From assembly GCF_009828745.1 (NCBI RefSeq), contig NZ_WTSX01000004.1, positions 1 through 64,000 of the forward strand: 64,000 nucleotides of DNA, given 5' to 3'. The notes beneath the pieces were generated by a model. The model did no database searches. It was not told the DNA's origin and was given only the letters and a program-made list of their open reading frames with translations. Position numbers and translations under genes: made by a program. Positions 28,558 to 30,987 of this stretch are shown here, in pieces. Position 1 is the first letter of the stretch, and each line of letters opens with the position of its first letter. The DNA comes from Erysipelothrix anatis (GTDB lineage Bacteria; Bacillota_I; Bacilli_A; Erysipelotrichales; Erysipelotrichaceae).

Positions 28558-28593
28558 TATCGCAAAAGCGACAATTGTGTCACTTTTGCGATA
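28558..28593. promoter_or_regulatory. Second copy of the TetR operator, past the bpsA-speD gene
   Basis: A 36-base inverted repeat with 16-base arms and one mismatch. Its core AAAAGCGACA-N4-TGTCACTTTT (28564-28587) matches the operator at 30432-30455 in 19 of 20 arm positions. The T-run lies on the wrong side for a terminator of the upstream gene. A TTGTCG-N16-TATAAA pair on the - strand overlaps it and would read into tRNA-Thr. Confidence 0.55.
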
Positions 28594-28600
28594 AAAAAAT

Positions 28601-29911
28601 TTAATATGACCGTTCTAATTTTCGGACTGTTGCCTGCCGCGACTCAAAAAGAACTTTTAACTGTTGAAGAATCTCGTATTCATGAATATCTTCATGGCAT
28701 ACAAATAAGTCCAGACCCGCATAACCATGCTCAGGCCACGTGTGAATTGTAAAGTGAGATTCACTCAGAATAATTGCTCCGCTGACGCCATATGGATCAA
28801 ACTGATGAAACTCATCAGTTACAGCAGTGAGCTTGAATGTGTCGACAATTCTATACATCGCTTCCTTAACATACGCGATATTTTTGAGGAGCGAAGCATT
28901 ACTATCCCGTAATTCATACAAGCTATGATACCCCAATACTTGCGTTTGCCCCTTACGTTTTGAATCATAGGTGTACATACTCGTTTCAAAAGACGACGCT
29001 GTAGCACGTTCAAGGATGTATAAATTGCTCTGATTACCAATAATTCCACCGCCCTGATATTTATTAAAGTTTTCGATGATTTCTGAATAGTACCACCCTG
29101 TTGCTGTAATATGTTTTTGTAGTTCGTGTTGATGTGCGCGTTGCTTATCGCTAAAAGACAAATAGACGGTTCCGGTTTCACTAATTAGATTTTGAGCGAA
29201 TTCCAAGAAGCTTGCCACACCCGCAACTGTATATGGTGGATCCATAAATATAAGATCAGCAATTTTATTTGTATTTAGAGATTGTCGAAAATCTGCTTGA
29301 ATACACCTAATGCTTCTATCCGCTTTTTGAATATGGTTCAAAACCCTTTGGTCAATATCATATACAGTTATTTGAGTTTGCTTTAGTCCCAATGACTTCA
29401 ATACTTGTGCAAGGAGAATGGAAACTAAATCATCATCACCTAAGAATACAATTTGTTTTTTGAAAATCAGTGGATCGAGGATATAGCGACTGACACGAGC
29501 TATGACCGTTTGCAATGTCGCATGTGCTTGATCTAATGTCACATCTGCATCGGGTCTTGTTTCATAGTATAAATTTAGCGCATCCAGCTGTGACTGGATA
29601 TACTTCAATCGTGCTGTTTCGTCTTTGATGAGTTGCATATAAAATTCTTTATTGATTCCTCGGTAGCCTAAGTCCGACTCAACATAATCAATCCCCATGG
29701 GTGTTAGCATATAGAAACTCTCACGCTTCAAGTATCCTGCTTTTACAAGTTCCTTTTTAAGTGCTGTCGCAAGCGGTGTTGGAACTTTCATAATTCGTGC
29801 CAACTCTTTCGTGGCAATCGTCTTGTTTAAGTATAATGTGACCATACCAATCTCGATTTGGTACATCGTATCAAGCCCAATATGCTTTTGTATTATCTTT
29901 AAATCTTTCAT
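28601..29911 (-). CDS. Fusion of branched-chain polyamine synthase (BpsA) and S-adenosylmethionine decarboxylase (SpeD)
   Basis: 436 residues. Residues about 20-75 are a winged helix. Residues about 85-300 are a BpsA (N4-bis(aminopropyl)spermidine synthase) domain with GDDD (158-161), YDID (184-187), DPPYT (224-228) and GGGIIGNQS (287-295). Residues about 325-430 are a complete SpeD: H-rich 'DEFHQF', processing site E384-S385 (SES/HFTIHTWPEHGYA), H390 and C405. SpeD makes decarboxylated AdoMet, the aminopropyl donor BpsA uses, so both steps are joined in one chain. SpeD is normally about 120 residues alone. It follows a TetR gene by 16 bases. Confidence 0.88.
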   Translation of the reverse strand: MKDLKIIQKHIGLDTMYQIEIGMVTLYLNKTIATKELARIMKVPTPLATALKKELVKAGYLKRESFYMLTPMGIDYVESDLGYRGINKEFYMQLIKDETARLKYIQSQLDALNLYYETRPDADVTLDQAHATLQTVIARVSRYILDPLIFKKQIVFLGDDDLVSILLAQVLKSLGLKQTQITVYDIDQRVLNHIQKADRSIRCIQADFRQSLNTNKIADLIFMDPPYTVAGVASFLEFAQNLISETGTVYLSFSDKQRAHQHELQKHITATGWYYSEIIENFNKYQGGGIIGNQSNLYILERATASSFETSMYTYDSKRKGQTQVLGYHSLYELRDSNASLLKNIAYVKEAMYRIVDTFKLTAVTDEFHQFDPYGVSGAIILSESHFTIHTWPEHGYAGLDLFVCHEDIHEYEILQQLKVLFESRQATVRKLERSY

Positions 29912-29927: not shown

Positions 29928-30416
29928 TTATCTGTATTTATTTTTAAATGTGTCAATAACTGCATCATTTAGAATACCTGACAATGCCATGACCGTCATG
30001 CCTTCGACCTGCGTAAAAATCATCGTCGCTTCGGACTCATTACAATGACTGTATGTCATAATTTGTTTGATGTTTACGTCGTAAATCCGTTGTGCCAAAG
30101 TAGACGTTTGAGCATATTTCATCATGTATTCGTATCCCGCAAATCGTAATGTACCTCGAATATTGCGTAATTCTAGAATTTCTTCATTTAAGTAGTCTGC
30201 AAAGCTTCCGTACTCACGATTTTTGTTTATCGAGAGCTCTGTTTCCATTAGTGCTTCAAATACCTCTTTGACACTTTGAAAATAGCGGTAGACACCACCG
30301 CGACTTAATCCGCTTGCATCTACAATATCGGTCATTGTAACGCCATTTAGCCCATTCTCTATAAATAAAGAACGGGAAGATACCACAATCTGATTACGTG
30401 TTTGTGCTGCTTTCAT
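29928..30416 (-). CDS. TetR family regulator of the polyamine fusion gene
   Basis: 162 residues from ATG 30416, with GGAGGG 4 bases upstream; an in-frame start at 30485 lies inside the promoter. Residues 5-50 are a TetR helix-turn-helix ('RNQIVVSSRSLFIENGLNGVTMTDIVDASGLSRGGVYRYFQSVKEVFEAL'), and the rest is an all-helical ligand domain. It shares a transcript with bpsA-speD and has a 32-base palindrome over its own promoter, so it should repress the operon. The ligand is plausibly a polyamine or AdoMet derivative, which is inference. Confidence 0.9.
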   Translation of the reverse strand: MKAAQTRNQIVVSSRSLFIENGLNGVTMTDIVDASGLSRGGVYRYFQSVKEVFEALMETELSINKNREYGSFADYLNEEILELRNIRGTLRFAGYEYMMKYAQTSTLAQRIYDVNIKQIMTYSHCNESEATMIFTQVEGMTVMALSGILNDAVIDTFKNKYR

Positions 30417-30427
30417 AAGTCCCTCCA

Positions 30428-30459
30428 AGTAAAAAGCGACATCGTTGTCGCTTTTTACT
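30428..30459. promoter_or_regulatory. TetR operator upstream of tetR-bpsA-speD
   Basis: Perfect 14-base arms (AGTAAAAAGCGACA and its complement) around TCGT. It overlaps the -10 and start of the tetR promoter. Confidence 0.75.
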
Positions 30460-30485
30460 ATACTGTATTTTTTTGGGTATTGCAA
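30457..30485 (-). promoter_or_regulatory. Promoter of tetR-bpsA-speD
   Basis: On the - strand TTGCAA (30480-30485), 17 bases, TATAGT (30457-30462); the operator covers the -10 and start site. Confidence 0.6.
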
Positions 30486-30495
30486 GACCCATACA

Positions 30496-30987
30496 CTACT
30501 TAGTTTTTAGGGCACTTATAATGAGTTGGGTTATCTCTAGTGCATCTTGTTGTTCGTTAAGTAAGGTTTCATCAATATCACTGAGCAAATCACCCTTGAC
30601 CCACCAGCGTTTTAAGGCATCCAACCCAAACTCTGCTGTATCTTTCATAAGGTGTCGTGTATAGCTTGCCTCAAACGATAGATCGAAGTAGTAGAAATAG
30701 GTAGGGAGTGCTAAAGCCGTAACTTCTCGGAACATTTCCTGGTATTTCCAACTGTTAAAAATCCCTTCAATCACAATTAAGTCATATTTCCCTAGACCAA
30801 ATTTAAGCATATTAACAATTAGTGATGCTGAGAGGTTGCCTTCAGTATCTTTTACATTGAGAATTTCTCGACGAATCAGATCTTGCGACAAGATCATTGT
30901 GGATCCAGGATAGTGCTCCCGAAGCATATGCGCAATCGTTGTTTTCCCACTACCACTATTTCCTCGTATTACAACAATTTGTGTCAT
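30496..30987 (-). CDS. P-loop kinase (zeta-toxin/AAA-like small kinase)
   Basis: 163 residues. Walker A GNSGSGKTT (about 9-17) and 'SQDLIRREIL' resemble small phosphotransferases of the zeta-toxin/shikimate-kinase fold; 'LIVIEGIF' (Walker B-like) follows, and a basic lid includes 'RRHLMKD'-type residues near 110. The substrate is unknown: small metabolite kinase or chloramphenicol-phosphotransferase-like enzyme are both possible. Convergent neighbours are absent. It lies just upstream of the tetR promoter region and probably ends there. Confidence 0.75.
   Translation of the reverse strand: MTQIVVIRGNSGSGKTTIAHMLREHYPGSTMILSQDLIRREILNVKDTEGNLSASLIVNMLKFGLGKYDLIVIEGIFNSWKYQEMFREVTALALPTYFYYFDLSFEASYTRHLMKDTAEFGLDALKRWWVKGDLLSDIDETLLNEQQDALEITQLIISALKTK

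Follow-up and report, generated by a model that had tools for sequence, protein, structure and literature searches.

Branched-chain polyamine synthase (BpsA) has been characterized as an N4-bis(aminopropyl)spermidine synthase (EC 2.5.1.128) in Thermococcus kodakarensis (Tk-BpsA) and Thermus thermophilus (Tth-BpsA; PDB 5xnc, 6j27). In Tk-BpsA, the GDDD motif binds or positions the aminopropyl group of decarboxylated AdoMet (dcAdoMet), and a flexible tail at the C-terminus carries this group on its acidic residues (PMC12979288). Branched polyamines and bpsA are treated as exclusive to (hyper)thermophiles (PMC12175538, PMC12979288), and bpsA was stated in 2025 not to have been identified in mesophiles (PMC12175538). 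The AdoMet decarboxylase SpeD (AdoMetDC) is represented in its class 1b form by the T. maritima enzyme (PDB 1tlu), and the roles of its processing Ser, His and Cys have been described (PMC10407285). Joining of donor-making and donor-using enzymes is known from the SpeD-SpeE type fusions of Ca. Pelagibacter and other bacteria, in which both parts are active and which are ancestral to animal spermine synthase (PMC11107197, PMC12803844). As for a fusion between BpsA and SpeD, we found no earlier report in the open-access literature, although absence there is no proof.

The window analyzed here (the whole stretch of 64,000 nucleotides from Erysipelothrix anatis) carries such a gene on the minus strand at 28601..29911, where 436 open codons follow an ATG. 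A first-pass annotation had read this continuous frame as a single BpsA-SpeD fusion, and profile searches and fold comparison agree with it on both halves. The Pfam profile BpsA_C matches residues 117-295 (E 1e-24, 87.5 bits against a cut-off of 27), so that the first 300 or so residues do have a BpsA match; this match spans positions 11-193 of the 243 of PF01861 and leaves the final 50 unmatched. The second half is recognized by Pfam AdoMet_dc (residues 329-434, E 6e-29) and by NCBIfam TIGR03330, the equivalog of B. subtilis-type adenosylmethionine decarboxylase (104.8 against a cut-off of 75.65). No match to Spermine_synth (PF01564) was obtained in a Pfam search of the protein, indicating that a SpeE-family transferase domain is not part of the chain. 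The same head-to-tail, stop-free fusion occurs in the complete genome of E. inopinata, with 49% identity over a full-length homologue. Codon-position identities between the two species (first/second/third) are 0.59/0.73/0.32 for BpsA and 0.56/0.74/0.44 for SpeD; the second position is the most conserved in both, which argues for constraint at the protein level on both halves. Together with the E. inopinata gene, this constraint shows that the fusion results neither from a frame error nor from misassembly. The fusion is thus backed by profile, fold and conservation, and we are highly confident that its two parts are enzymes of the BpsA and SpeD families.

The fold was analyzed on an AlphaFold2 model built from a 17-row alignment (mean pLDDT 85.6, pTM 0.67), which does not fix the relative placement of the domains. 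The BpsA part (residues 1-304; 29000..29911, minus strand) consists of an N-terminal helical/winged-helix region followed by a Rossmann catalytic domain. In the model, this domain is closest to Tth-BpsA and Tk-BpsA (Z 20-22, rmsd 2.2-2.7 over 195-199 residues), while the best methyltransferase reaches a Z of at most 18, below the BpsA structures. The SpeD part (residues 324-436; 28604..28942, minus strand), a class 1b proenzyme, superimposes on T. maritima SpeD over 113 residues (Z 18.9, rmsd 1.6), with 39% sequence identity over the same length. A sequence comparison with solved structures places Pyrococcus 2qm3 and Tk-BpsA 5xnc nearest to the BpsA part, and T. maritima AdoMetDC nearest to the SpeD part. 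Between the two parts, residues 305-323 (28943..28999, minus strand) form the single disordered stretch of the model, with pLDDT <50.

The catalytic core aligns with those of characterized BpsAs; identity to Tk-BpsA and Tth-BpsA is 21-26%. The motifs GDDD (158-161), DPPYT (224-228) and FNxY (282-285) lie within the BpsA part, and the previously named GGGIIGN is in place at 287-293. GDDD is invariant in an alignment of 11 BpsA homologues, as are D224, the DPPYT Asp (Tk Asp225), and Y285, the FNxY Tyr (Tk Tyr290); GDDD, the DPP Asp and FNxY are common to the fusion and the thermophilic enzymes. On the other hand, two of the six mapped active-site positions of Tk-BpsA are changed, Glu259 aligning with Gln257 and Tyr316 with Asn293. 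For the mapping of Tk-BpsA residues, PDB chain and protein numbers were taken to differ by 20, which fits all residues but those of the tail as numbered in the review (Glu339, Asp342-Glu345); the tail is therefore cited here by its letters, ELYDDEE. As for SpeD, the annotated processing residues E384-S385, H390 and C405 align with E62-S63, H68 and C83 of T. maritima AdoMetDC, and HTWPE is intact. The predicted self-cleavage site is E384-S385 (28757..28762, minus strand), with the pyruvoyl group at S385. Unlike the T. maritima enzyme, which matches it over the whole domain, SpeD is here part of a longer chain, and BpsA would remain on the beta chain after cleavage.

The junction between the two parts deserves attention. 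Tk-BpsA ends in ELYDDEESSTT, as checked on its sequence, and every BpsA compared has a YT-x-[DE] motif at the place corresponding to its acidic tail. In mesophilic BpsAs this motif reads [LIM]YT[AGY][DE] and is followed in most of them by a short zinc-ribbon-like segment. The two Erysipelothrix fusions are without this segment, and SpeD comes straight after the YT motif. In E. anatis the motif is YTxD (313-316) within the linker, its Y313-T314 pair being invariant among the 11 BpsA proteins, and D316 is the only acidic residue left of the ELYDDEE cluster. Judged by motif and position, YTxD appears to correspond to the Tk-BpsA tail and, given the low pLDDT, to be likewise flexible; D316 would then be a candidate aminopropyl carrier. 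Since the zinc-ribbon segment is missing and SpeD directly follows, the formerly swinging tail of BpsA may serve as a tether to SpeD. The loss of Glu259 and Tyr316 and the reduction of the acidic cluster to D316 also imply that acceptor and product may differ from those of Tk-BpsA. The Cys4 zinc-ribbon-like segment itself is a C-terminal feature of mesophilic Bacillota and Bacteroides BpsAs (L034, L036-L041; e.g. L036:8950-9107), absent from the Thermococcus enzyme.

The fusion is patchily distributed. E. inopinata DSM 15511 carries it at a different chromosomal locus, and it is absent from 11 of the 13 Erysipelothrix genomes. Few BpsAs occur in the genomes sampled from the class and phylum, the one further clear match being in a Haloplasma MAG; the weak PF01861 matches from the class, at about 18-27 bits, were discounted collectively as generic methyltransferase-like. 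A scan of named genomes revealed unfused BpsA in Paenibacillus, Brevibacillus, Haloplasma, Roseburia and a Bacillota MAG. In Metaclostridioides mangenotii and a Clostridia MAG, it showed bpsA and speD side by side as separate genes with 36-49 bp between them. A second, longer fusion is present in Bacteroides stercorirosoris and relatives (L041, L111), with domain content and order as in Erysipelothrix. It differs by a Cys4 zinc-ribbon-like segment kept between BpsA and SpeD and by an AraC-like gene nearby in place of tetR; like the genomes of the two Erysipelothrix carriers, that of B. stercorirosoris has no SpeE. Among 159 Bacteroides genomes BpsA occurs in four, fused in all of them. The hosts of these BpsAs are known as mesophiles.

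The trees favour separate fusion events in Erysipelothrix and Bacteroides, a single origin appearing in 6% of BpsA bootstraps, although AU tests do not reject a single origin (p 0.086 and 0.22). Because the Bacteroides form keeps the zinc ribbon and groups with unfused zinc-ribbon BpsAs, we lean to two origins, and the Bacteroides fusion probably arose independently. No relative was found in the viral contigs scanned, and the single match in the plasmid collection, 27% identical, lies on a Nonomuraea record of 11.9 Mb. The phage records include an unverified faecal clone of 4.3 kb, listed as Bacteriophage sp. (MT839461.1, L123). It carries an AraC-like gene and encodes a BpsA-SpeD fusion of 555 aa that is almost the same as the Bacteroides one, and the clone is probably bacterial DNA. 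With only the Nonomuraea record and this Bacteroides-type clone matched, there is no evidence for carriage by phages or plasmids.

The first-pass annotation recognized the fusion but missed the shortened BpsA C-terminus, the Clostridia linkage and the Bacteroides fusion, as well as the regulatory cassette with its palindromes. A gene for a TetR-family regulator of 162 aa (29928..30416, minus strand; TetR_N 44 bits) lies 16 bp upstream of the fusion gene. Its product is 53% identical to the TetR encoded beside the E. inopinata fusion, where the genes are a few bp apart, and the two genes are probably co-transcribed. Before tetR, at 30432..30455, lies the palindrome AAAAGCGACA-N4-TGTCGCTTTT, a predicted TetR operator found at the same position in E. 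inopinata. It directly follows a predicted promoter, TTGCAA-17-TATAGT (30457..30485, minus strand), from a consensus scan whose matches are no more numerous than by chance. The 24-bp palindrome (consensus AAAAGYGACA-N4-TGTCGYTTTT) has a second copy downstream of the fusion gene (28564..28587), and in the whole genome it occurs at these two places only, bracketing the cassette. Likewise, full matches in E. inopinata are confined to the cassette edges (G012:C1:259310 and 261182), with one further site with two mismatches elsewhere. All four copies fold as RNA hairpins, three strong (z -4.7 to -6.0) and the fourth weaker (-3.3), so the downstream copy, itself a strong hairpin, may be a terminator, an operator or both.

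The segment 28528..30430, which holds the fusion gene and all of tetR, is absent from a sister genome (G007) whose flanks are about 95.5% identical by BLASTN. This empty site retains one degraded palindrome with two mismatches (C2:16877); loss of a formerly present cassette is the simplest explanation. The more distant G003 is without the cassette and has no palindrome at the homologous place. The site adjoins a tRNA-Thr gene common to the compared genomes. A small P-loop kinase-like gene beside the cassette (30496-30987) is kept in G007, and no counterpart was found at the corresponding place of G003, indicating that the spot beside tRNA-Thr varies within the genus.

The metabolic setting was then considered. 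The earlier remark that no spermidine synthase gene lies nearby extends to the genome scale: profile searches detected no SpeE (PF01564) in the whole genome of E. anatis or of E. inopinata, and the fusion is the only SpeD in both. E. anatis has no PLP-dependent ornithine/arginine decarboxylase of the PF02784 or PF01276 families, and in E. inopinata a single PF02784 match was found, next to a gene with an adenylation domain. Both genomes encode a complete pot operon (PuuR-like regulator, potA, potB, potC, potD), and PotA of E. anatis passes the spermidine/putrescine equivalog NF043075 (588 against a cut-off of 550). With no SpeE, second SpeD or PLP decarboxylase of ornithine or arginine, and with potABCD complete, BpsA is the only recognized user of dcAdoMet, and imported spermidine is the probable acceptor, as had been suggested. 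Of nine BpsA genomes compared, five have bpsA fused with or next to speD and none of these has a SpeE above cut-off, and all four with unlinked bpsA have one. The comparison is post hoc and includes one small MAG; its pattern is expected if the linked SpeD serves BpsA alone.

We infer activity, acceptor, product, regulation and the benefit of tethering as follows. The SpeD domain would cleave itself at E384-S385, forming the pyruvoyl group, and decarboxylate AdoMet to dcAdoMet, while BpsA would stay on the SpeD beta chain, tethered by its own flexible tail. PotABCD would import spermidine, the most likely acceptor, and the tethered BpsA would move one or two aminopropyl groups from dcAdoMet onto the polyamine, giving a branched product such as N4-aminopropyl- or N4-bis(aminopropyl)spermidine. 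TetR would be expressed with the fusion gene and would probably repress its own operon via the promoter-side palindrome. Taken as a whole, a bifunctional polyamine enzyme with an imported acceptor and a branched product is, in our judgement, likely.

The main rival is a bifunctional enzyme with an unbranched product, either a linear tetraamine or aminopropylated putrescine, agmatine or another imported amine. The altered acceptor-site positions Glu259 and Tyr316 and the reduced carrier tail would fit it, as would a host that makes no SpeE product, and Tth-BpsA already takes a broad range of acceptors (PMC12979288); yet the BpsAs characterized so far add branches to spermidine or related amines, and their catalytic core can be aligned with that of the fusion, and we consider an unbranched product unlikely. 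More improbable is that SpeD has become an arginine or ornithine decarboxylase making agmatine or putrescine, with the BpsA domain doing something else. SpeD-derived decarboxylases of this kind were found among SpeDs without SpeE (PMC10407285), and E. anatis shows the same pattern, also lacking SpeA/SpeC, so AdoMet is not certain as the substrate. Against this stand the TIGR03330 score and the proline of HTWPE, presumed to match the residue taken in PMC10407285 as the marker of AdoMetDC versus arginine decarboxylase. Furthermore, the Bacteroides carrier has PLP decarboxylase-family genes, and SpeD is joined or adjacent to a dcAdoMet-requiring family in three lineages; such a join favours AdoMet without proving it.

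We give still less credit to a reading of the BpsA-like domain as an ordinary SAM methyltransferase with a DPPY motif. It could draw on DPPYT standing where Tk-BpsA has DPPET, on weak matches to N6-adenine methyltransferase families, all below cut-offs, and on METTL5 and similar structures reaching Z 18, but GDDD is invariant, the best matches by sequence and fold are BpsA structures, and the partner enzyme makes dcAdoMet. Finally, decaying or silent cargo is suggested by the gene's patchiness, including its lack in the nearest sister species, and is hardly credible for a gene with intact frame and catalytic residues, conservation highest at second codon positions in each domain, and tetR and palindromes conserved in two species.

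The bifunctional enzyme with a branched product thus remains our preferred reading, and we give about an even chance to its wider form: that a single tethered enzyme produces branched polyamines from spermidine in mesophilic bacteria, among them human-gut Bacteroides and Erysipelothrix, that Erysipelothrix imports this spermidine and other carriers make or import it, and that in Erysipelothrix the swinging acidic tail doubles as the link to the donor-making enzyme. If so, branched polyamines are no signature of high-temperature life. A BpsA fused to its own donor supply, in mesophiles without another recognized use of dcAdoMet, is a clear genomic case against exclusivity to thermophiles, and carriers are available in culture (E. 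inopinata DSM 15511, B. stercorirosoris DSM 26884 and M. mangenotii DSM 1289). BpsA-SpeD would also be a second kind of donor-plus-transferase fusion: SpeD-SpeE proteins have a SpeE-family transferase and an N-terminal SpeD, whereas here the transferase is BpsA, with a mechanism unlike that of SpeE, and SpeD is C-terminal. Both transferase families coexist in Brevibacillus sp. L064 (G413:C27), which has an unlinked bpsA together with a SpeD-SpeE fusion with N-terminal SpeD.
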